Below, in pieces: positions 5,207 through 18,053 of a stretch of 18,053 nucleotides of DNA; within the stretch, counting starts at the first letter, position 1; every line of letters starts with the position of its first letter. The DNA is from Deltaproteobacteria bacterium (GTDB lineage: Bacteria > Bdellovibrionota_F > JAHFAK01). The stretch is taken from contig JAHFAK010000036.1 of assembly GCA_023250585.1 (NCBI GenBank), positions 1 to 18,053 on the forward strand. Direction: 5' to 3'. A program made the translations under genes and the position numbers. The notes under the pieces are model-generated. The model saw nothing but the letters and a program-made list of their open reading frames with translations, was not told the origin of the DNA and did not search any database.

Positions 5207-6160
5207 TTATAACATCGAGTATTTATTATATAATTTATCTATCCACTCCAGGGAAAAATTATAGCGATAGAGATTGTCGGCTTGTCGTAAAAGCGATGGA
5301 CTTGTCATATTGATTTCCGAGAGTTTATCGTCAATAATATCAAGAGCTGTAAAGAACAATCCCTCTTTTTTACAAAAACCTCCAATGTGTTCGCATAGTT
5401 TTTTTTCAGTTGCAGTTAACGTATGTGGTAGCAACTGAGCGCCACTGTGCAGATTAGTATAGATAGAACCCTTTTTGGGAACCTTTTTTAAGGCTACAAG
5501 AGGTTTATCTTCTATCATCAAAACTCTGGTTTCTCCATTGATAATAGCAGGAAGAAATCGTTGAATCATAACTCTTTCTTTTTGATGAGCAGTTCCTGTG
5601 AGAATTTTTTCTTCATAGTCTTTCTGTGTCTCATCCAGTAATACGACTCCCTGTCCTCGACAGCTAAAGAGAGGTTTTAAAATACCCTTCCCGCCCAAGT
5701 CTTTGATCTGGGTTTTAATTTCTTGAATAGTAGAACTGACATAGGTGTCGGTAATAAGACCTTGAAAATTAAATATTACCATCTTTTCATTATGTTCTAA
5801 AAGTTTCGTAGGATTATTAATAATCAATGGCCCCTGAACGGTTTCTAATAAAAGAAGAAGGGTCACATAACTCATATCAAACGGAGGATCTTTACGAATA
5901 TGGATAAAATTAAAACCATGTAAATCGTAATCATTTTTTGGCTCACTATTACTATGAGCAATAACATCTTTTATTATTTTTTTATTATAACTATACGCGT
6001 GACAGATTTTCTTTTTGGAACTAAGAGCAATGTCATATTCAGTGCAAGAATAGACTTCATCCCCTTTTTTCATAAGTTGTTCCATGAGATACAGAGAAGT
6101 GTCATCATCTATATGAAGTTTCTCAAATGTGTCGAGGATAAAAAGATGTTTAAATGTCAT
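5207..6160 (-). CDS. gshB: Glutathione synthetase (GshB), ATP-grasp ligase
   Basis: GshB joins gamma-glutamylcysteine and glycine with ATP to make glutathione in the cytoplasm. From the ATG at 6160 the product has 317 residues, against 316 in E. coli. Visible blocks are the N-terminal MTFKHLFILDTFEKLHIDDD strand-loop, FIHIRKDPPFDMSYV (85-99), NNPTKLLEHNEK (115-126), the ATP-grasp stretch ILKPLFSCRGQGV (160-172), MIQRFLPAIINGETRVL (198-214) and the Mg/ATP-binding SEINMTSPS (281-289). The frame is open to an ATG at 6190, which would overlap oppF by 25 nt and add ten residues with no counterpart in E. coli GshB, so I prefer 6160. Neither start has a clear SD. It is the last gene of the peptide-import operon, 5 nt after oppF. 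No gshA (glutamate-cysteine ligase) is in the window. Confidence 0.92.
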   Translation of the reverse strand: MTFKHLFILDTFEKLHIDDDTSLYLMEQLMKKGDEVYSCTEYDIALSSKKKICHAYSYNKKIIKDVIAHSNSEPKNDYDLHGFNFIHIRKDPPFDMSYVTLLLLLETVQGPLIINNPTKLLEHNEKMVIFNFQGLITDTYVSSTIQEIKTQIKDLGGKGILKPLFSCRGQGVVLLDETQKDYEEKILTGTAHQKERVMIQRFLPAIINGETRVLMIEDKPLVALKKVPKKGSIYTNLHSGAQLLPHTLTATEKKLCEHIGGFCKKEGLFFTALDIIDDKLSEINMTSPSLLRQADNLYRYNFSLEWIDKLYNKYSML

Positions 6161-6165
6161 AAAAA

Positions 6166-7137
6166 TTAATACAAATGACAGCTTACCCAATGTTCATTTT
6201 CTGCTGTTCCCACATTTTTCAATTCAGGAATTACTTCTCGACAGATTTCTTTTGCCTCTGGACAGCGAGGATGAAAAGGACATCCCGGTGGAGGAGCCCA
6301 TGAAGATGGAGCATCTCCTTCGAGAATTATTCTTTGTGGTTTTTGTTTAGGATCAGCAACAGGAATAGCTAAAAGCAGCGATTGAGTATATGGATGCTTT
6401 GGGTTTTTGTAGAGATTTTCCGTAGAAGTTTTCTCGACGATTTTTCCTAAATACATTACTGCTACATCATGACTAATATGTTGAACAACTGCAAGATCAT
6501 GTGAAATAAAAAGAAATGAAATACCAAATTTTTTTTGTAATTCTGATATTAAATTTAGCACTTGAGATTGAACAGAAACATCCAGTGCGCTTACCGGTTC
6601 ATCGGCAACAATGAATTTTGGATGGAGCGCCAGCGCACGTGCGATTCCGATTCTTTGTCGCTGCCCTCCTGAAAATTCATGTGGATAGCGATTTAATACA
6701 TTTCTTCGTAAATGCACTACATCTAATAAGTCTAAAATTCGTTTTGATTTTTCTTCTTTAGAACCGATATTATGAGTATCAAGTGGCTCTCTAATAATTT
6801 CACATATAGTCATTCGAGGATTTAATGAACCATAGGGATCTTGGAAAATTATCTGCATATCTCTTCTTTTTTTATTCATATGCTTTCGGCTTAAATGTAC
6901 TATATTAATGCCCTCGAAGAGAATTTCTCCGGCTGTCGCTTCCATAAGACGAAGGATTGTTCTTCCTAAACTCGTTTTTCCACAACCAGATTCACCAACA
7001 AGTCCCAGTGTTTTAGCTTTTTGTATTACAAAGGAAACTCCATCAACTGCCTTTAAATGATGCCGAACTCTTCTCAAGAAACCGCTTTTTACGGGAAAAT
7101 ATTTTTTAAGATTTTTAACTTCTAAAAGATTTTGCAT
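6166..7137 (-). CDS. oppF: Oligopeptide/dipeptide ABC transporter ATPase, OppF/DppF type
   Basis: This is one of the two nucleotide-binding subunits that drive peptide uptake from the cytoplasmic face. The 323-residue product has Walker A GESGCGKT (48-55), Q-loop IIFQDPYGSLNP (Q99), signature SGGQRQ (156-161), Walker B FIVADEP (175-181) and switch histidine H213. The peptide-transporter C-terminal extension carries four cysteines (286, 292, 299, 320) with CPFHPRC spacing. KKYFPVKSGFLRRVRHHLKA at the N-terminus is typical of the F-type rather than the D-type subunit. The start ATG 7137 lies 14 nt after oppD with an AAAGG-like SD. Substrate specificity cannot be read from the ATPase, so the opp symbol names the family rather than a proven substrate. 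Confidence 0.94.
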   Translation of the reverse strand: MQNLLEVKNLKKYFPVKSGFLRRVRHHLKAVDGVSFVIQKAKTLGLVGESGCGKTSLGRTILRLMEATAGEILFEGINIVHLSRKHMNKKRRDMQIIFQDPYGSLNPRMTICEIIREPLDTHNIGSKEEKSKRILDLLDVVHLRRNVLNRYPHEFSGGQRQRIGIARALALHPKFIVADEPVSALDVSVQSQVLNLISELQKKFGISFLFISHDLAVVQHISHDVAVMYLGKIVEKTSTENLYKNPKHPYTQSLLLAIPVADPKQKPQRIILEGDAPSSWAPPPGCPFHPRCPEAKEICREVIPELKNVGTAENEHWVSCHLY

Positions 7138-7151
7138 ACTTTATGCCTTTA

Positions 7152-8126
7152 TTAATACGGATAAAAACATGCTACTTCAGTTTTGTCATCTTTTTTTTCA
7201 AGCGGGGGCTCTTCTAAGCGGCAATGATCTCGAACACGTTCACAGCGATCAGCATAACGGCATCCTACAGGTAAATGGAGCAAATCAGGCACTGTGCCCT
7301 CAATAGTAGGAAGCTTTTCCAATTTTTTTTCCCGAATGCGTGGAATTGAAGTAAGTAAGCCGCGGGTATACGGATGCCGTGGGCTCTCAAAAAGAGTACT
7401 AACATCAGCTCTTTCAACAATTTTACCACAGTACATGACCAACACATTCGTACATGTCTCAGCAATAACCCCTAAATCGTGTGTAACGAGAATAACTGCG
7501 GTATTAAATTTTTTTTGCAGCTCACTAATTTGTGCCATAACTTGTGCTTGAACAGTTACATCGAGTGCTGTCGTTGGTTCATCCGCAACAAGTATTTTAG
7601 GGTTACATGATAACGCCATTGCAATCATTATTCGCTGTCGCATCCCACCAGACATCTGATGTGGATATTCATCTATTCTCCTTTCTGGATTGGGAATACG
7701 AATTCGTTCAAGCATTTTAATCGCACGTTCTTTCGCTTCTTTTTTAGAAGCATGTGTATGTTGTCTGATAACATCAATCATTTGATTACCAATAGTAAAT
7801 ACAGGATTGAGACTTGTCATTGGTTCCTGAAATATCATGGAAATTTCTTTTCCACGGAAATGGCGCATTGCTGATTCTGATTTAGATACGATATCTTTTC
7901 CCTGATAGAGAATGTGCCCTTGGATAATTTTTCCTGGAGGAGAAGGAATAAGTTTAAGGAGAGAGAGTGCCGTAACTGTTTTTCCACACCCCGATTCCCC
8001 AACAATACCAAGTGTTTCGCTGTTATTAAGGCTAAAACTAATTCCATCAACTGCGCGAACTTTTCCTTTATCAGTTGTAAATTCAATTACTAAATCTTGT
8101 ACTTCAAGTAATTTTTGGTTGTTCAT
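7152..8126 (-). CDS. oppD: Oligopeptide/dipeptide ABC transporter ATPase, OppD/DppD type
   Basis: This is the partner nucleotide-binding subunit of the peptide importer. The 324-residue product carries Walker A GESGCGKT (43-50), Q-loop MIFQEPMTSLNP (Q100), signature SGGMRQ (159-164), Walker B ILVADEP (178-184), D-loop TALDV and H216. Its C-terminal extension holds GTVPDLLHLPVGCRYADRC and four cysteines at 289, 295, 302 and 320. A characterised DppD homologue binds an iron-sulphur cluster in this extension, so the cysteines may do so here. The ATG directly follows the oppC stop (TAA then ATG, no gap). D and F subunits are expected to form a heterodimer on the OppB-OppC membrane core. Confidence 0.94.
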   Translation of the reverse strand: MNNQKLLEVQDLVIEFTTDKGKVRAVDGISFSLNNSETLGIVGESGCGKTVTALSLLKLIPSPPGKIIQGHILYQGKDIVSKSESAMRHFRGKEISMIFQEPMTSLNPVFTIGNQMIDVIRQHTHASKKEAKERAIKMLERIRIPNPERRIDEYPHQMSGGMRQRIMIAMALSCNPKILVADEPTTALDVTVQAQVMAQISELQKKFNTAVILVTHDLGVIAETCTNVLVMYCGKIVERADVSTLFESPRHPYTRGLLTSIPRIREKKLEKLPTIEGTVPDLLHLPVGCRYADRCERVRDHCRLEEPPLEKKDDKTEVACFYPY

Positions 8127-9020
8127 TTAGCTAACTTTCTTAGGATCAAGCGCATCTTGTAAGGCATCTGAAAATGTATTAAAGGCAAGCACTAAAATCA
8201 ACATAAAGCCGGAAGCTGCAATAAAATTATTAAAGTTTCCTGCGGGAACCTCTTGAGCTGCCTCAGCAAGCATTAATCCCCAGCTAACCCCTTCTTTTAC
8301 TCCCAGATTCAAAAAACTCAATATGACTTCACTTTTAATTGCGGTAACAAAAAGAATAGTCGATTGGACAAGTAATATATGTATTGTATTTGGGATAATA
8401 TGTTTAAAAATTATTTTGGTATAGGAAACACCTATTGCTCGAGCAGCTTCAATATATTCTAAATGTTTAATTTTAATTACTTCTCCTCGTATGATTCTAC
8501 ACGTTGATGTCCAAAACGTACTAATCATTGCAATATGCATTGCATATGGATTATCAGCTAAAGCAACCGCAAGTGCTGCAACAAATAAATAAAAGGGAAT
8601 TGAATCAATAACACCATAAAACCAAGTAATAAGAACATCGGGTATTTTTCCTGAAAAGAAACCAGCAACTGCTCCTAAGATTCCCCCTAAAAAAGTAGCT
8701 ACAATGGCAACAATAAAACCAATTTGAAACGCTGTTTTTGTACCATATAGTGCTCTTTCAAAAATATCTTGGCCATTTAGATTAGTACCAAAAATATGTT
8801 GACGAGACATACCTGAATATCCATCTGTTACAAAGCGATCCCATGATGATCCAAAGAATCCTAGGCACACTCCTACTGCGATTCCTAAATAAATTAAAAC
8901 GACAAAAAATGCGACAATACCTATTGTATCTTTTCGTAATTTCCTTAGAGCTTTTGACCATAAGGATTCACCGTAGGTATGAGTTTGCTTGTTGGTACTA
9001 TTTTGAATCACTTCATTCAT
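8127..9020 (-). CDS. oppC: Peptide ABC transporter permease, OppC/DppC type
   Basis: This is an integral inner-membrane subunit that forms half of the peptide translocation pore. The 297-residue product has a first membrane helix at about 32-55, then a periplasmic loop with HIFGTNLNGQDIFERALYGT, the OppC-type N-terminal signature. Further helices follow, then the EAA loop IEAARAIGVSYTKIIFKHII that contacts the ATPases, a LSFLNLGV segment, and the C-terminal NTFSDALQDALDPK typical of the family. ATG 9020 overlaps the oppB TGA as ATGA (9020-9017), which implies translational coupling, and the gene abuts oppD. Family and position in the B-C-D-F order are secure; substrate is not. Confidence 0.94.
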   Translation of the reverse strand: MNEVIQNSTNKQTHTYGESLWSKALRKLRKDTIGIVAFFVVLIYLGIAVGVCLGFFGSSWDRFVTDGYSGMSRQHIFGTNLNGQDIFERALYGTKTAFQIGFIVAIVATFLGGILGAVAGFFSGKIPDVLITWFYGVIDSIPFYLFVAALAVALADNPYAMHIAMISTFWTSTCRIIRGEVIKIKHLEYIEAARAIGVSYTKIIFKHIIPNTIHILLVQSTILFVTAIKSEVILSFLNLGVKEGVSWGLMLAEAAQEVPAGNFNNFIAASGFMLILVLAFNTFSDALQDALDPKKVS

Positions 9021-9970
9021 TTTAATGTCACTCGTGGGTCAACAACTGTATACATAATATCCGTAAGAATTAAACTCAACACATAAATCATTGCCGTCCA
9101 GGTAACAGCCGCTTTAATTATGGGGAGATCTCCCGTTAGAATTGCATCATATAAAACAAGCCCTATTCCGGGAATACTAAAATATGATTCAAGGACAATA
9201 CTTCCTGCAATAATAATAAAAGGTAATGTTATAATAATTCTCGTCATAATAGGAATAAGACTATTTTTTAAGATATTTTTGAAAAGTAATTTTAAAGGAT
9301 GTGTACCGAAAGCCCTTGCGGTTCGAACATGATCTTTAGTAATTTCTTCTACAATTACCGCTCGGTAAAAACGCGTATTATAGCCAATAGAAAGAAATAC
9401 AGAAGCTAAAACTGGTACAGTAACATATTTTAAATAACTCGTGAATGACTCTACTTCCCAACCTTGTACGGGAAAGATATTAAGTCCATAACTTGAACAG
9501 AATATAATTTGAAAAAGTATAACAATGATAAGATAGCTCACACTCATTCCAATAACTGCAACAAACATCACACTTTTATCAATCATTTTTCCCCGAAAAT
9601 ATGCTGCTATTAATGCAAGAATAATGGAAATAATATTTCCTGAAATCAGAATCGGTAGCTGAACGGCTAGAGAAACAGGAATTGTTCGTGCAAATATACT
9701 TGAGACTTTTTCACCGGTTGAATCCGAATATCCAAAATCAAAAGTAATAATTTCTTTAAAAAAAATAAAATAACGCGTAAGAAAAGGTTGGTCATAGCCA
9801 AGTTGGTGATGTACCTCTTCTATTTGTTGCTGAGTAGGATTTTTTCCCAGAAGATCATATGTCTTATCCGGACCAAAATATACCATTAGAACAAAACTAA
9901 TAAGAGTAACTCCAAAAATTAATGGAATACTTTGAAAGAATTTTCGTAAAGAATATATGAATGTATCCAC
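9017..9970 (-). CDS. oppB: Peptide ABC transporter permease, OppB/DppB type
   Basis: This is the second integral membrane half of the peptide importer. The 317-residue product begins with a membrane helix (about 13-30, SIPLIFGVTLISFVLMVY), as in OppB/DppB, followed by the periplasmic stretch containing LGYDQPFLTRYFIF. Several helices follow, with the EAA-like loop RTARAFGTHPLKLLFKNILK and the FSIPGIGLVLYDAI segment conserved in this family. It ends with LTDIMYTVVDPRV. The start is GTG 9970, one base after the oppA stop; no SD is visible, so it probably depends on ribosomes finishing oppA. Its stop overlaps the oppC start by four bases. Confidence 0.94.
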   Translation of the reverse strand: MDTFIYSLRKFFQSIPLIFGVTLISFVLMVYFGPDKTYDLLGKNPTQQQIEEVHHQLGYDQPFLTRYFIFFKEIITFDFGYSDSTGEKVSSIFARTIPVSLAVQLPILISGNIISIILALIAAYFRGKMIDKSVMFVAVIGMSVSYLIIVILFQIIFCSSYGLNIFPVQGWEVESFTSYLKYVTVPVLASVFLSIGYNTRFYRAVIVEEITKDHVRTARAFGTHPLKLLFKNILKNSLIPIMTRIIITLPFIIIAGSIVLESYFSIPGIGLVLYDAILTGDLPIIKAAVTWTAMIYVLSLILTDIMYTVVDPRVTLK

Positions 9971-9971
9971 G

Positions 9972-11720
9972 TTATTTTATATCGACATATTTAAAATAAT
10001 TTCCAAGAACATTTTCAACTGGATATAATATTACATTTTTATGCCATACCCACAAATCAGTACGTGAAAAACCAGCAATAGTTACTGAATCTTCAAGAAG
10101 CAATTTATGCATCTTTTTATAAATTTCTGATCGTTCTTTTGAAGGTTGCATTGTACTAGCTTTTTCATACAGTGCATTGTATTCCGGGTTATTGTAATTA
10201 GAATTATTTGATCCCGGAGAAGAATTAGGTCCATAAAAAAGCTGCAAAACGTTTTCACTATCAGGAAAATCAAGCCCCCATGCCATTGCAATAGTCATAG
10301 TTTTTCGTGATTTTACTGCTTTTGAATAATCCCCAAAACTTGCAAACGTTTGCTTTTTAATTTTACTCGATGGATATCCGATAGTAATAAGCCATCCTCT
10401 AAATTGATCATACATCTGATTTTGCCGTATATCTGACACCATTGAATATGTAATGTCTGGAAGATTAGCTGCAGTCCATCCATTATCCTTAAGAATTTTT
10501 TTTGCTCCCTCAGGATCATGCGTAATGTATTCTTTTGATAATGTGGGATCATACCCATCAATGCCAGGTGAAATAATACCAGGATATGCTTCACCTAAAT
10601 CATCAAAAAATGTTTTAATATATTGTGGCCAATCCCAAGCTTTATGAATTGCTATTCTTAGAGCTTTATTCTTTTTTTCTAATTCCTTATCTTTGTTGTA
10701 ACCAATCTTTGGATCGTCCATATTAAAGTTAAGATAGCGAAAAGCAAATTCAGTTTGAGGTAAGAAGTAATATTTTTGAGCGTACTCTTTATTGAGGCTC
10801 AAGGGATTTCTCGATGCAATGACGTTATTAAATTGTTGTTCAGGTATAAATCCAAATTGAATTTCAGAACCTTTAGTAAAGGAAATCCATCTCATTGAAA
10901 AATTTTCCATAAAATTAATTTCAATTTGATCAACAATGGGAAGTTTCTTCCCTTGTAAAGATTTAATACCAGTAAATCCATGGATCTTTTCATCGTATCC
11001 TTCATTTTTTAAATCAAAAATTTCTTCTCGATACTTTTTATTTTTTAAAAGAACTGCTTTTTGGTTATTAAAACTTCCTAAGACCCAAGGTCCCGAACCT
11101 ACTGGATGAATTGAAATTTCAGGACCATATTTTTCAACAACTTCTTTGGCAACAATTGCTGAATATCCTTTTGTAAGTGTATAAACAAGTTGAGGGTATG
11201 GTTTTACTAAAGAAATCTGAATGGTATATTTATCAATGGCTTTAAGTCCCTCAACTTGTTTTTTATAGTCTGAACCAGCTGTTTTCCAATCGTCAATTCC
11301 TTTAATACGTCCTTGCCAGAGCCATGCACCACGAGGGAGTGTCTTGGGGTCAAAGTGACGTTTAATTGAATATACAAAATCCTCTGCCGTTAGTTCTCTT
11401 CCCTTCCCACCTTTAAATGCAGGGTCATCACTAAAGAAAACTCCTTTTTTAATCTGAATCGTATAGGTAAGCCCATCTTTACTTATTTTTGGTAAAGCTG
11501 CTGCTAAGTTGGGTTTGAGCTCATAGGGAATTTTAAGGTATTTATAATCATATAATGTATCACAAATAGCACTGACTATCCTATTTTGATACTTTGTTGA
11601 ACTTTGAACTGGATCGAGAGAAGTCGGTGTCCCCTCAACTGAATACTTAAATACTTTTATTGCAAATGCAGAAGTTGAAATTGTACAGAAAATAAATAAT
11701 AAAAACAGTTTCTTTTGCAT
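9972..11720 (-). CDS. oppA: Periplasmic peptide-binding protein, SBP_bac_5 (OppA/DppA) family
   Basis: This is the extracytoplasmic receptor that captures peptides for the OppBCDF importer. The 582-residue product has a signal peptide (1-20, ending SAFA before IKVF) with no lipobox cysteine after cleavage, so it should be soluble in a periplasm rather than a lipoprotein. Family 5 features are GTPTSLDPVQSS at the mature N-terminus, LTAEDFVYSIKRHFDP, HPVGSGPWVLGSF, a helical ALRIAIHKAWDW segment, and the C-terminal NNPEYNALYEKAS with SEIYKKMHKLLLEDS. The length is within the 500-600 range of the family. ATG 11720 has an AAGGAGGG SD 9 nt upstream and a likely promoter at 11766-11794. It is first in the operon. 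Residues lining the pocket do not tell which peptides bind. Confidence 0.93.
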   Translation of the reverse strand: MQKKLFLLFIFCTISTSAFAIKVFKYSVEGTPTSLDPVQSSTKYQNRIVSAICDTLYDYKYLKIPYELKPNLAAALPKISKDGLTYTIQIKKGVFFSDDPAFKGGKGRELTAEDFVYSIKRHFDPKTLPRGAWLWQGRIKGIDDWKTAGSDYKKQVEGLKAIDKYTIQISLVKPYPQLVYTLTKGYSAIVAKEVVEKYGPEISIHPVGSGPWVLGSFNNQKAVLLKNKKYREEIFDLKNEGYDEKIHGFTGIKSLQGKKLPIVDQIEINFMENFSMRWISFTKGSEIQFGFIPEQQFNNVIASRNPLSLNKEYAQKYYFLPQTEFAFRYLNFNMDDPKIGYNKDKELEKKNKALRIAIHKAWDWPQYIKTFFDDLGEAYPGIISPGIDGYDPTLSKEYITHDPEGAKKILKDNGWTAANLPDITYSMVSDIRQNQMYDQFRGWLITIGYPSSKIKKQTFASFGDYSKAVKSRKTMTIAMAWGLDFPDSENVLQLFYGPNSSPGSNNSNYNNPEYNALYEKASTMQPSKERSEIYKKMHKLLLEDSVTIAGFSRTDLWVWHKNVILYPVENVLGNYFKYVDIK

Positions 11721-11874: not shown

Positions 11875-14067
11875 TTACATCTTTGGAATTTTTTCACAGA
11901 GTTTATTTAATGATTCAATATGTTTTGTTTCTCGTTCTACGAGCCAATGCCAACTGTTCCCTTTGGTATCAAATTCAGAAAATGTTTTTTCTAAATACTT
12001 TGCAAATGCAAACCCTGCAATAAGCGTATCTTGATAGGAAGAATTTACCAGCGGAGCTGAATATACCATAGAGGGAGGGTAGGATGAATCTTTAATGTTA
12101 ATTTTTTTTGGGTCAATCTTTTGTAAATCCTTACATTGTTCTCGAATAAAATCTCGTCTCGCTACATCTAAACCATAATAGATATTCCTGAGTTGTGCAC
12201 GTGCTTTTTCCACTTTGTTATTTAACTTTTCACTCGATTGTTTCATCCAATCATTTGTATACTGACGCTTTTCTTCTAATTTTGGATCTTGATCCTCTTT
12301 TTTCTGAAATAATTCATTATATTCTTCTTGAGGAGATTGAGGAGAAGCACCATTACGTGCCAAATCATCAAATGTTCCATCACCTTCACAGAATGGTTTA
12401 AAAATAATAGGAGAAGGCTCGTATGCTCCCCAACGAGCTAAATCTTTAATATTTGCATTAAGAAAATGACAAACATGTTTCGTTTTTATTGGGACAGGGA
12501 TTTTTTTCCCCAATACAGTACCTAATGAATGAGTGGTAACAAACGTATCAAAAGCGACTCCTTCTTCTCTGAGCTCAAATAATGGCTTTGATTTCCATAA
12601 ATCATTAGTAAGAAATGCATGAATCCTCTCTTCATTTTCCTGCATAACATCGATACGTATTGTTTCTACACGGCCTTCTTCTAGGAATTGATTATCTTTA
12701 TCAAAAGTCTCTCCTAAAACCAGCCGGCGATATTCATTCAATAGCTGATAAAAAGTAGAAACCGTAGCATTTACTACCCAAGGATCAAGAAGAGGGTCAT
12801 GTAAAAATGTATAAAAAATACTTCGTGTATCTTGAAGGGCTAACCAAATTTTTCGTTTCGTATACCATTGAGTAATTGGACCCTCTAAAAGCATCGATGC
12901 AGTGATTACTGCAAGTTGATTGAGAATAAATACTTTCCAACCTAATGGACCAGTAGCTGCTTCTCCAACAGCTGCTGCTTTAGAGCCTGCTCGAAATACT
13001 TTATAGGCCTTTATTAATCGTGTAACTCCTGCTAAGGCAACTCTCGATGTGGCGTAGGATAGCGCAACAGAAGAAAGAATCGGGACTAAAGAAAAAGAAT
13101 CTTCTTCCTCCATTAACTCTGGAAAATACATGAGTGCCATCAGTGCTATTGTCTCTTTCCCAAATTGTCCAAGCATAGGAAGACCTTTAATGGCTTGTAA
13201 ATTATGAGGAACAAGAAATGAGAGATCCATCTTTTTAAGAATAGCTGCTCCCATCATTGAACTATAAGGTAAATATCTAAATCCTGGATAGGTATTTGCT
13301 AAACTGCTTACTCCAATATTTTGTCCAAAGTGTTTATCAATAAAATAGGTTTCGAGTAATGTATTTGCACGTTTTTGTGCATCATAATTCAAATCTTGAT
13401 CGATTAAATTTTCATCACCTGAATAAATTCCTGAATCAGCAATGATCATCCACAAAAGACGATTTAAAAATGGATCTTTGGCAAACTTTGCTAAACCTTC
13501 AATAAAGTCGACTTTATTGAGAACTCCTTGCTGAGCATCTCCAAAAGAATCAAACAAAAAAGCATATAAATCTGCTTCATTCCGTTGCATATCTCGTGTC
13601 TCATCAATGAAATATTTACTAGCACCAACGGTTTCATTTCCTGTATCAAAGAGCCAATCACCAAAAGTGTACGTTATAAAAAATGTTCCCATTGAAAGTA
13701 TAAATCGAGTTTTTTTCCAGCTTTTTAGTCGATTATGAAAGAGAAATCGATCAATGGAACAAGCAACAATAAGACTGAAAGCGACTTTTAGTTTTAACTC
13801 TATAAGTGATTTATTTTCATCTCGTACATTGAGTAAATCATTCTGAATTTTTGCGAGTCTCTCTATATGAACACGATGTACAATGCTATCTAATGTGACG
13901 GATATTTTTTTATCAGGAGTTTCAGGAGATACGGGAATTTCAATGCTGATTTCTTTAAGTTTATCAAAATCAATGTATTCTCCATCTTGCGCATAGGTAA
14001 TTGAAGTAAGAAATATGCCCATACAAAATACAAGAAGAGTATAATACATCCTCTTATTATGGGTCAT
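11875..14067 (-). CDS. Unrecognised exported membrane-associated protein, 730 residues (second gene of cassette)
   Basis: I do not recognise a family. The N-terminus is a signal peptide (about 1-26, KR then a hydrophobic core, ending ITYA before QDG). Hydrophobic stretches that could span or enter a membrane lie near 93-110, 122-140, 326-347 and 376-394. The rest is predicted mostly helical and charged, with a Lys/Glu/Gln-rich, probably coiled segment at about 580-640. Four cysteines lie in the C-terminal half (533, 560, 645, 724) and two between the signal and residue 110 fall in hydrophobic parts. ATG 14067 is 2 nt after the upstream gene's stop, and its AAGGAG SD (14078-14073) encodes the last two residues of that gene, so the pair is surely co-expressed. 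Its C-terminus is repeated in a second gene at the right edge. It may work with its partner in the envelope; no enzymatic motif was seen. Confidence 0.85.
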   Translation of the reverse strand: MTHNKRMYYTLLVFCMGIFLTSITYAQDGEYIDFDKLKEISIEIPVSPETPDKKISVTLDSIVHRVHIERLAKIQNDLLNVRDENKSLIELKLKVAFSLIVACSIDRFLFHNRLKSWKKTRFILSMGTFFITYTFGDWLFDTGNETVGASKYFIDETRDMQRNEADLYAFLFDSFGDAQQGVLNKVDFIEGLAKFAKDPFLNRLLWMIIADSGIYSGDENLIDQDLNYDAQKRANTLLETYFIDKHFGQNIGVSSLANTYPGFRYLPYSSMMGAAILKKMDLSFLVPHNLQAIKGLPMLGQFGKETIALMALMYFPELMEEEDSFSLVPILSSVALSYATSRVALAGVTRLIKAYKVFRAGSKAAAVGEAATGPLGWKVFILNQLAVITASMLLEGPITQWYTKRKIWLALQDTRSIFYTFLHDPLLDPWVVNATVSTFYQLLNEYRRLVLGETFDKDNQFLEEGRVETIRIDVMQENEERIHAFLTNDLWKSKPLFELREEGVAFDTFVTTHSLGTVLGKKIPVPIKTKHVCHFLNANIKDLARWGAYEPSPIIFKPFCEGDGTFDDLARNGASPQSPQEEYNELFQKKEDQDPKLEEKRQYTNDWMKQSSEKLNNKVEKARAQLRNIYYGLDVARRDFIREQCKDLQKIDPKKINIKDSSYPPSMVYSAPLVNSSYQDTLIAGFAFAKYLEKTFSEFDTKGNSWHWLVERETKHIESLNKLCEKIPKM
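11884..12074 (-). repeat. Direct repeat copy 1 (3' end of the 730-residue gene)
   Basis: These 191 bases match 17863-18053 in the same orientation at an offset of 5979, with four mismatches (11884, 11887, 11934, 11953 against 17863, 17866, 17913, 17932). All four are silent in the reading frame shared by the two copies. Similarity stops within the last three codons of this gene; the flanks beyond are unrelated. The other end of the repeat is unknown because copy 2 runs off the window. Confidence 0.97.
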
Positions 14068-14069
14068 GC

Positions 14070-17000
14070 TTACTCCTTGTGCCCCGATTCTTCTTCCCCA
14101 CCTGAGATTGCATGAATAATCTGAGAAATAAATTCCTCAGTCTTATCTATGGTATACCCTGCTACATTGCCCGGTGCATGATACATTCTACTTCCCATAT
14201 CTCCAAACATTTTACCGAGTGCTTTGTTACTTCCGTTTTTACGCTCATAATCAATATAATCAGTGATAAAATTAACTTGGATAACATTCGATAAAATACT
14301 GGTAGAGAGGCCTGCTGTCATTGCATAACTGAAATCGTAAATGATCCCCTGTTGAGCAAATTTAGGCGCTGCTCGAGGTACACTTTTGAAAAATCCCCAC
14401 GCAGGATCAATGAATAAGATTCCAACAACCTGATTGCCAAGATATGATATCCAGCTAAATTCTCCACGTTTTGACATTTGTAACCAATAATTCACGAGAA
14501 AGCCTGACTGAAGACGGAGCAATGTATTTTTTATGTTGGCAAAAAGCATATTTTTGCCGAATTCTCTGAACCCACGCCAAAAACGTGTTCCATCTCCCCA
14601 AAGAAAACTAAAGATAGCTCTCCCTTCTCTGGCTTCTATATCTACAATATGGTTATTAAGAGCTTTAGTAAGAATTTCTCTATTGAACTTCATTGCAGTA
14701 TCCTCACCGAATTGATTTTTAACAATCTCAAGTATCTTTGAAGAAAGAACGCTGACCCGAGCCTCTAACATATGAAAACGAAATGCCTTTGCCAGGATTC
14801 CAAAATAGAGATTTCTCCAAAAACGTTCATTCATATCACGATGGATCCATGCAGTATGAGACTTTGTATAAGGAAAATCATAGGTTGAAAACATTGCTTT
14901 ATGCTGATCTTGAGGATTTGCCTCATCGACGTAATACGATCGTAACATAAGTTCAGTAGGTAAAATCGTTCCAACAATTTCGAAAAATTCAATTAAAATA
15001 CCTTTACGTATTTCGTCTGCACTCACTTCGCGTACATAATTTTCTGCTTGAATTTTATAGAAGAAAGAAAATATACGATTAAAGAACATCCGCGGCAGTT
15101 TTCTTCCTGCCAATATCGTTCCCTTTAAAGAAGGTTCTTCTCCTGCCATTAATTCAGTGGCAAATGATTTCATTGTTTGCTTAAACCACTTGGCAAGGCC
15201 CCAATTACTCATAAAAACTTGAGGATACTCTTTGAGTAAGGAAATAATATTTTCTACAACCTCTGGATCAGCTGCATTTTTTTTCCCTAATTTTATGAGT
15301 TGTCTTCGTAATGCACCCCAATTAATAGCTTTAAATACTGACTGAGCTTCTTCTGATTGAATACCATCGAGAGCTCTCTCTATGTGTTTTTCAAGAGCTC
15401 CATTGTTTTTAATTATAGTCAGATCTTTTCGAATAATAGGAATTATATACTCTAAACCTTTCTGAACACCTGCTTGTATTGCTCCTTGATATTCACGAGT
15501 AGCCTGGACAGTTTGTTGCACCAGTTTGATTTGAGCCTCTGCAAGAGCTTCATCTGTTTGCTTTCCCATGGTTGCTTTCAAAAATTTCTTGAGCGCATCT
15601 ATAATTCTTGTCATATATGAACGTTGTAATGGATCCACTTCCTTTTCTAAATTATTTGCTATTCCTTCCAATTCAGAGAATGCTTGTGTTGCGCTTGCGC
15701 CTCCTTTTTTTGCAAATTGTTTGTCAATCGTAGCTTTAAGTACTTGGAGACTTTCTTTTGAACCAGGTGTTATAAGATTATTAGCTAACTCCATAGCAGC
15801 AGCTATAAGCTGTGTATTAAAGACCTTAAAATACAAGTTCGAAAGGCGTGCCATCATATCATACGGCGTATATCTGAATTGTGACGAAAGAAAACTACCC
15901 GAAACAAACGGTTTAAAAAGTTTTGGTTTTAATGCAAAAGGAGCAACGATCCCAATGCTTATAGGAATTGCCAATTGCCACATCCAATCTTTAGAAGCTG
16001 TCCGTACGTATTCGGGATGGGTACTTAATGATTTATCGAGTTCTCTATTAGCAAACTGTTGCTTGGTCGCTTGACCTATAGAACTGCAGGCTTCAATAAA
16101 ACTAGAATCCTCTGGAATGACTGCTTCTGGATCATGACCTATCGTAATCCACGTTACCCCAAGTGCCTTATACTCATCAGTTACTGTTCTAAAAGGGTTA
16201 TTAAAATCGATTGGCCCTGACTCTTCAAAATATAATTTGCGATCGATGGTTTGAATTTTCTCATAAAGACCTGTTAAGAGTTTTGCAATTTTTTCGGTAA
16301 ATTGTTCGTATAATGCAGTTGCTTCTTTATTATTTCCGAAACGTTCAATGGTAGTATTCAATAATGTAGTAAACTCTTTATCCGTAAGTTTACTTCCATC
16401 GTTTTTTCGGGAATGAGGAGCTATCGATGCTTGAAAATTTTCATCGGAAACGATTTTATCAACCTGGCTATAATATTCTTTTTGGAGTTTTTTTATTTCT
16501 TCGACGAGATCATGGTATTGTGCGATTACCGCATTATCTGAAGTTGCATCCACGTTCCCAGCTTTACTAAGATTCGCTACAAGAACAGTCATTACCAGAA
16601 ACTGCTCAAATTCCTGAATCGGAATTCGTTCAGCAACAGCATCTTTTACGTCGTGTTCTCCTGACTTATGAGCAAAAACATCAATCGATTTTTCTCGGGT
16701 TGTTAAAAGCCGGAGATTATCTTTAAATTCTTGCTTCATCTTTGCAATTTCAGGATCATCGTCCTGTTTTTTTGCTTGTTGAGAGACCTTTTCTGCTTCT
16801 AGACTTGCAGTAATAGTCTGAATATCGCCTATCTCAGGAAGAGGATAAAAATAGTAAGGAATCTCTCTATTTTTATAGAGGTTATGAATAAGATTATGCA
16901 CAATATCTATTTTTCTAAAAACATAAAAGCCTTTACTCTCAGCATTGTCAGGAATCATAAATATATAGTTTTGAGATTGCCCAATGGGTTTTTTCTCCTG

Positions 17001-17534
17001 CAGGGGACGCACATCCAGCGAATAAAAGAAGAAATGAGTTTCTGCGGTATTATAAAAGAGAATTCCCTTATTTTTAAGAACTGCAATACGCCATTGATAG
17101 GGAACAGTACATCCCGTAAACGGACTATCTAATTTATGTAACTTCTCTTTTAGTTCTTCAATTTGTTCTTTTGTTTTCAAATGATTATTCGAACAATCTT
17201 CTTCATTGACTACATAGGTGTAGTTAAAGATTTGAGTTCTTTGTTTGGTAAGTTCCTCGTGGATAATTCTTGTAAACTCGGCTTTATCCTTATACTCTTT
17301 TACCTCAAGATCAAAAAGCTTGAGTAAAAATTCTTCCCGCGAATTATCATCGTTAAAAATACTCTCGGCAGTTATTTCTGGTATTACAAGATTGTCTGGT
17401 TGAGTTGAATATTGTTTCAGATAATCGAGGGACTTCTCTGATCGAGCATAAACAAAATTATCCCCCTGATTAGTCAATGGAAGAAAGGCAAGCGCGATTA
17501 AAAAAATACCTAAAAATAGTTTTCTCTTATTCAT
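14070..17534 (-). CDS. Unrecognised large exported protein, 1154 residues (first gene of cassette)
   Basis: I do not recognise a family. Residues 1-30 form a signal peptide (NKRK, hydrophobic core, cleavage after VYA), so the protein should leave the cytoplasm. The exported part is mainly charged and helical. A likely mixed N-terminal domain (about 31-240) holds two of only three cysteines (114 and 142), which could form a disulphide; the third is C483. A helical region covers about 240-430. A strongly hydrophobic stretch at about 517-535 (WMWQLAIPISIGIVAPFAL) could be a membrane segment. Helix-rich, Gln/Ala/Lys-rich sequence follows to about 760. The C-terminal third is rich in aromatic residues and Arg (FWRNLYFGIL, RFWRGFREFG) with two further hydrophobic patches near 1029-1047 and 1066-1085. 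ATG 17534 has a GGAGG SD with a 7-nt spacer. No catalytic motif was seen; an envelope or host-interaction role is only a guess. Confidence 0.85.
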   Translation of the reverse strand: MNKRKLFLGIFLIALAFLPLTNQGDNFVYARSEKSLDYLKQYSTQPDNLVIPEITAESIFNDDNSREEFLLKLFDLEVKEYKDKAEFTRIIHEELTKQRTQIFNYTYVVNEEDCSNNHLKTKEQIEELKEKLHKLDSPFTGCTVPYQWRIAVLKNKGILFYNTAETHFFFYSLDVRPLQEKKPIGQSQNYIFMIPDNAESKGFYVFRKIDIVHNLIHNLYKNREIPYYFYPLPEIGDIQTITASLEAEKVSQQAKKQDDDPEIAKMKQEFKDNLRLLTTREKSIDVFAHKSGEHDVKDAVAERIPIQEFEQFLVMTVLVANLSKAGNVDATSDNAVIAQYHDLVEEIKKLQKEYYSQVDKIVSDENFQASIAPHSRKNDGSKLTDKEFTTLLNTTIERFGNNKEATALYEQFTEKIAKLLTGLYEKIQTIDRKLYFEESGPIDFNNPFRTVTDEYKALGVTWITIGHDPEAVIPEDSSFIEACSSIGQATKQQFANRELDKSLSTHPEYVRTASKDWMWQLAIPISIGIVAPFALKPKLFKPFVSGSFLSSQFRYTPYDMMARLSNLYFKVFNTQLIAAAMELANNLITPGSKESLQVLKATIDKQFAKKGGASATQAFSELEGIANNLEKEVDPLQRSYMTRIIDALKKFLKATMGKQTDEALAEAQIKLVQQTVQATREYQGAIQAGVQKGLEYIIPIIRKDLTIIKNNGALEKHIERALDGIQSEEAQSVFKAINWGALRRQLIKLGKKNAADPEVVENIISLLKEYPQVFMSNWGLAKWFKQTMKSFATELMAGEEPSLKGTILAGRKLPRMFFNRIFSFFYKIQAENYVREVSADEIRKGILIEFFEIVGTILPTELMLRSYYVDEANPQDQHKAMFSTYDFPYTKSHTAWIHRDMNERFWRNLYFGILAKAFRFHMLEARVSVLSSKILEIVKNQFGEDTAMKFNREILTKALNNHIVDIEAREGRAIFSFLWGDGTRFWRGFREFGKNMLFANIKNTLLRLQSGFLVNYWLQMSKRGEFSWISYLGNQVVGILFIDPAWGFFKSVPRAAPKFAQQGIIYDFSYAMTAGLSTSILSNVIQVNFITDYIDYERKNGSNKALGKMFGDMGSRMYHAPGNVAGYTIDKTEEFISQIIHAISGGEEESGHKE

Positions 17535-17718: not shown

Positions 17719-17748
17719 TCATGATCTTATTGATACCATGAGCTTCAT
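17719..17748 (-). other. Nine-codon reading frame behind an ideal Shine-Dalgarno
   Basis: The minus strand carries AAAGGAGGT (17765-17757), an 8-nt spacer and ATG 17748, then MKLMVSIRS and a TGA at 17721-17719. The SD is as good as any in the window, yet the frame is tiny. It may be a leader peptide upstream of the cassette, the decayed start of a lost gene, or chance. No attenuator-like hairpin pair follows that I could see. I report it as a possible translated element, not as an established gene. Confidence 0.3.
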
Positions 17749-17809
17749 AATTGTATACCTCCTTTGTTGGGAAATTAATGTGAGTCAAAGGCCTCATTGC
17801 ATATCTCCT

Positions 17810-17838: not shown

Positions 17839-18053
17839 TCATCTGCTATCTAAGTTTATTATCGGGATTTTTTCACAGAGTTTATTTAATGATTCAATAT
17901 GTTTTGTTTCTCTTTCTACGAGCCAATGCCAGCTGTTCCCTTTGGTATCAAATTCAGAAAATGTTTTTTCTAAATACTTTGCAAATGCAAACCCTGCAAT
18001 AAGCGTATCTTGATAGGAAGAATTTACCAGCGGAGCTGAATATACCATAGAGG
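17839..18053 (-). CDS. C-terminal part of a second copy (paralogue) of the 730-residue exported protein
   Basis: The frame is open from the window edge to a TAG stop at 17841-17839, so the gene begins beyond the right end; the ATG at 18048 is internal, matching Met667 of the downstream protein. From that Met, 62 residues are identical to residues 667-728 of the 730-residue protein (from MVYSAPLVNSSYQDTL to the Cys-Glu-Lys-Ile-Pro near the end). The tails then differ: IINLDSR here against KM there. All base differences in the shared part are silent. This gene precedes the 1154-730 pair on the same strand, which suggests a series of related cassettes. Because the repeat meets the window boundary, an assembly break or collapse there cannot be excluded. 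Confidence 0.85.
   Translation of the reverse strand, partial: SMVYSAPLVNSSYQDTLIAGFAFAKYLEKTFSEFDTKGNSWHWLVERETKHIESLNKLCEKIPIINLDSR
17863..18053 (-). repeat. Direct repeat copy 2 (edge paralogue)
   Basis: This is the partner of 11884-12074, 187 of 191 bases identical and still matching at the last base of the window, so the true repeat is longer than can be seen here. The match ends on the other side a few codons before the stop codon. Confidence 0.97.

Follow-up and report, generated by a model that had tools for sequence, protein, structure and literature searches.

Locus organization

The window considered in this study is the entire contig C89 of the source genome, 18,053 bp in length. 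The assembly comprises 164 contigs and 2.24 Mb, and 16S rRNA is absent from it. A scan with the neighbouring RarA protein had its best matches at 52-58% in many phyla, which gave no placement, and revealed no gene order in common. The genes of interest, A2 and B2, lie on the minus strand of the window, and the paralogues A1 and B1 are found on another contig, C79. The relevant features are as follows:

Window 11875-14067, minus strand: B2, ORF call of 730 aa, with the paralogue B1
Window 11888-12981, minus strand: 3' portion of B2, which B1 matches almost exactly over the region assembled in both copies
Window 14068-14079, minus strand: A2-B2 junction, with AAGGAG in the end of A2, TAA, a 2-nt gap, and the ATG of B2
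Window 14070-17534, minus strand: A2, ORF call of 1154 aa, with the paralogue A1 and homologues in family f132 of a second phylum
Window 17729-17783, minus strand: 55-bp element, identical to L007 7138-7192 upstream of A1
Window 17863-18053, minus strand: C-terminal end of B1, the B copy lying upstream, last 63 residues, cut by the contig end
L007 7260-10760: A1, 1166 aa, paralogue of A2
L007 10766-11971: B1, directly after A1, truncated by the contig, 402 residues assembled
L015 7568 to L007 1860, L007 2015-4693, and L007 4720-7038: D genes, immediately upstream of the A1-B1 pair and on its strand

Hydropathy analysis bears out the initial annotation, in which both proteins were credited with signal peptides and several hydrophobic segments. 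In A2, the signal peptide spans residues 6-24, with likely cleavage between VYA and R, and it is followed by hydrophobic segments at 304-322, 517-535, 846-864, 1031-1049, and 1072-1090. The signal peptide of B2 spans residues 7-25, with likely cleavage between TYA and Q, and four further segments are found at 87-105, 122-140, 327-345, and 380-398. Hydropathy leaves room for some of the segments in either protein being buried rather than membrane-spanning. The exported N-terminal region of A2 carries the family motif SKNYIF..P..GFY..RKID..IPYYF.PLPEIG, and the protein continues with a conserved hydrophobic segment, the sequence KPKLFKPF, and a C-terminal part that is helical and membrane-prone. 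The first two segments of B2 form a hairpin that encloses a K/R-rich loop. Both this loop and the flank after the conserved segment of A are rich in K and R and poor in acidic residues. AlphaFold2 models of A2 and B2 reach a pLDDT of 33 in both cases and a pTM of 0.21-0.26. Consequently, they give neither an interface nor a fold.

At the junction between the two genes (...CACAAGGAGTAAGCATGACC), the Shine-Dalgarno sequence of B2 (AAGGAG) is formed by the A2 codons AAG GAG TAA, as expected from the earlier description of a 2-nt gap and a ribosome-binding site inside the end of A2. The A1-B1 pair has the same layout, with a 5-nt gap and the Shine-Dalgarno sequence of B1 inside the final codons of A1.

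Directly downstream of B2 (window 5207-11720), the minus strand carries an oligopeptide ABC transporter operon in the order oppA-B-C-D-F and, after it, a glutathione synthetase-like gene. The opp genes (9017-11720) adjoin the pair on the same strand, as would be expected if A and B were an accessory uptake module of this operon. Such a role is highly improbable, given the 155-bp gap between the opp genes and the pair and the lack of opp neighbours at the A1-B1 copy and at all f132 loci. The D family upstream of A1-B1 comprises three large exported proteins (763, 892, and 772 aa) encoded in tandem, none of which belongs to a known family.

Tandem array and divergence of the copies

The duplicated relative reported upstream of the pair in the initial annotation corresponds to the end of B1 and forms part of an array, A1-B1-A2-B2. 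Its fragment at 17863-18053 is 98.9% identical to B2 over 187 nt. The terminal 121 bp of C79 have the same sequence as window 12981-12861; the 121 bp with which C89 begins, read on the minus strand, are identical to window 12074-11954. Both contigs end within one repeated, near-identical B segment, with equal overlap length. The simplest closure would be a tandem array A1-B1-A2-B2 across C79 and C89, which may hold further repeats of the A-B unit.

A1 and A2 are 31% identical over about 1,080 codons, and B1 and B2 are 56% identical. A2 and B2 are real genes: the A1 and A2 frames stay open, with a pS of 0.72 against a pN of 0.45. The identity of B1 and B2 in 40-residue blocks is 18-70% up to residue 320 and 95-100% beyond, and the dS of the 3' half is 0.10. 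These comparisons indicate an old divergence of the A copies and of the B 5' halves under purifying selection (dN/dS about 0.3, dS near saturation), together with recent homogenization of the B 3' halves.

The 55-bp element contains AAAGGAGGTATACAATTATG, a strong Shine-Dalgarno sequence, and a start codon that opens a frame of 8-9 codons (MKLMVS...). It occurs only twice in the genome, once upstream of each A gene, and the repeat is exact although the A genes have diverged so far. It could be a leader element, a converted segment, or the remnant of a gene start; an Rfam search of the leaders returned no RNA match.

An array of this kind might serve as a recombination reservoir for variation if A and B were fast-changing surface or host/prey-contact proteins. 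This role would suit the tandem arrangement and the recently homogenized B 3' half, the presence on C79, a short way upstream, of three exported D paralogues in tandem, and the patchy distribution of A and B. However, the recombination observed homogenizes the copies and does not diversify them, the dN/dS ratio denotes constraint, and the conserved hydrophobic segments with their K/R flanks suggest proteins embedded in the membrane, not released at the surface. Variation of the surface is consequently considered an unlikely function of the pair.

Comparison with known families

No meaningful match to A2 or B2 was found in Pfam, NCBIfam, PHROGs, PADLOC, or PDB sequences, which agrees with the earlier statement that neither protein has a recognizable family, and no known family with an unrelated role was matched. 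The top Pfam E-values were 0.0027, obtained for a 21-residue scrap under its cut-off, and 0.06. The PDB matches were short and were rejected as chance matches. With respect to anti-phage defence, no PADLOC model matched A2 or B2. A literature search returned nothing relevant to the pair.

DotA/TraY and VirB6/TrbL are large polytopic inner-membrane proteins, and the signal peptide of DotA is cleaved. A and B resemble both groups in being large, polytopic, and probably located in the inner membrane, and the combination of a signal peptide with a large, polytopic, helix-rich protein resembles DotA/TraY. It is nevertheless quite improbable that A and B are diverged polytopic parts of a secretion or conjugation machine. 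No match of this type was obtained in Pfam or NCBIfam at an E-value of 1. Moreover, no ATPase, lytic transglycosylase, channel, or pilin gene lies near any copy, and secretion ATPase and core-complex genes are absent from the window, C79, and the f132 loci.

Homologues in a second phylum

Two-row profiles gave no match in G001, one other genome of the same class, and one weak match to A in G131, a genome of another phylum (E 0.0014). The G131 protein is an exported protein of 809 aa with three colinear conserved blocks, and it was judged genuine. Within the phylum of G131, A was found in five genomes, all of family f132 (G131, G388, G412, G419, and G431). A joint profile of both groups, applied to 368 genomes, recovered the same set of f132 genomes. 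Its additional candidate for A, G657 (E 0.0095), was rejected as a false positive, the protein being an M16-type peptidase as judged from its sequence; a candidate for B, G260 (E 0.0097), was rejected as well, its locus carrying unrelated genes only.

Homology of A across the two phyla is firmly indicated by HMMER E-values of 1.4e-15 and 2.9e-13 with colinear blocks and by a profile-profile (hhalign) score of 102.7, where none of 60 column shuffles scored above 28.0. B is probably homologous between the source genome and f132. Its hhalign score is 40.5 (P 3e-4), where 150 shuffles yielded at most 27.7 and reversed profiles at most 18.5, and HMMER alone gives an E-value of 0.04. Adding members raised the score from 30.8 to 40.5, and no shuffle reached the latter value. 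The similarity covers about 150 columns, namely the hairpin with its K/R loop and the A..G....F motif that follows it, both of which are shared by the window and f132 proteins. The A proteins of f132 share with those of the window the signal peptide, a GFY.LR..D....PIP.FFIP region, the conserved segment followed by KKPF, and an RGSF motif near the C-terminus. The f132 A proteins are about 800 aa long, whereas window A has approximately 350 more residues, located in the middle. The f132 B proteins, in contrast, have an additional N-terminal exported domain and lack the long C-terminal part of window B.

Outside the source and f132 lineages, A and B were found in none of approximately 385 other genomes, and in the rest of the f132 phylum in none of approximately 360. 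Searches of IMG/VR, plasmids, and phages did not detect them, and a scan of genome contigs with two short A peptide patterns gave no match, which is weak evidence of absence. The absence elsewhere thus refers to about 750 genomes searched by profile, complemented by the weaker pattern scans, and not to all bacteria. The term lineage-specific, as used in the initial annotation, does not hold in view of the f132 homologues, although these are rare and patchy.

B is present in G131, G388, G412, and G419. The only A-bearing genome without it is G431, which is 61% complete and has A close to a contig end; A and B occur together in every A-bearing f132 genome that is more than 80% complete. In G419, B overlaps the gene A(b) by 8 nt if B begins at ATG, and AAGGAG for B again lies inside the final codons of A. 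The order in G388 is A, an inverted gene C, and B. G412 has the same order on the assumption that C61 and C32 meet within C: each of these two contigs ends in the gene, and the pieces of 272 and 209 residues add up to roughly its full length. In G131, C adjoins B, and A lies about 9 kb away. The genes of these three genomes are separated yet near, and strict adjacency of A and B is evidently not universal. In the survey of related genomes proposed earlier, co-occurrence holds in f132, and adjacency holds in G419 and fails in G131, G388, and G412. Scattered single homologues were not encountered, the proximity in G412 depending on the contig join. One A copy adjoins a ribonucleotide reductase gene, identified from sequence, in all five A-bearing f132 genomes.

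Several f132 loci also contain exported proteins of 1100-1500 aa beside C and B, referred to as the X family, with tandem copies in G412:

L119 2410-8615: X
L109 3010-6408: X
L118 1-4614: X

In four of five comparisons of X with A, scores of 25-37 were obtained against shuffled maxima of 20-24, none of them with window A alone. The X proteins may be distant paralogues of A. No such link was seen for the C and D proteins. C and X genes are not seen beside the window pair, no C homologue occurs among the compared proteins of the window and C79, and D genes are not seen in the f132 loci.

A putative envelope complex

The reading given most weight, held to be somewhat better than an even chance as a whole, is that A and B associate as partner subunits in a single envelope complex with an inner-membrane anchor. 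Because the pairing is conserved, the genes are coupled, and they were duplicated as a unit, a single complex is suggested. The tight coupling and joint system proposed in the initial annotation gain support from this duplication, from the overlapping pair in G419, and from the co-occurrence in f132. With regard to the host-interaction role also suggested there, what the analysis shows is no more than an exported pair of membrane proteins. We infer complex formation, topology, and function, the topology by means of hydropathy and the positive-inside rule.

A would be exported via its signal peptide and would expose an N-terminal domain, probably beta-rich, in the periplasm. It would cross the membrane at the conserved hydrophobic segment, whose C-terminal flank is positive (KKPF or KPKLFKPF), and would carry additional membrane-associated helices. 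B, the smaller partner, would be a helical membrane protein with the K/R-rich loop in its first hairpin. The signal peptides and the K/R-rich, acid-poor flanks suggest that the N-terminal domains lie in the periplasm and are attached to an inner-membrane anchor. Translational coupling would tie B to A, as a fixed stoichiometry would predict. Counting against the complex, no ATPase or other energy source adjoins the A and B genes. The coupled exported proteins form a rare membrane-protein family, contained in no library, whose anatomy is known well enough for a test as one complex.

The neighbours in both lineages are rich in large exported proteins of no family, D in the source genome and C, X, and Y in f132. 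On this basis, A-B may serve as a membrane platform for anchoring, assembling, or exporting surface proteins specific to each lineage. This is the least certain step of the proposal and is regarded as doubtful. If it is true, the platform would represent a new envelope system, present in two lineages about which little is known. A still bolder and less likely version would make A-B the membrane core of an undescribed envelope machine, present in two unrelated phyla probably as a result of horizontal transfer, by which variable sets of large exported proteins encoded nearby are assembled or displayed.

A further observation concerns G131, in which a signal-peptide protein of 1432 aa (L118 4860-9158, plus strand) adjoins B and C. 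Residues 1175-1236 of this protein make up a complete J-domain of the DnaJ type (Pfam E 2.5e-27).
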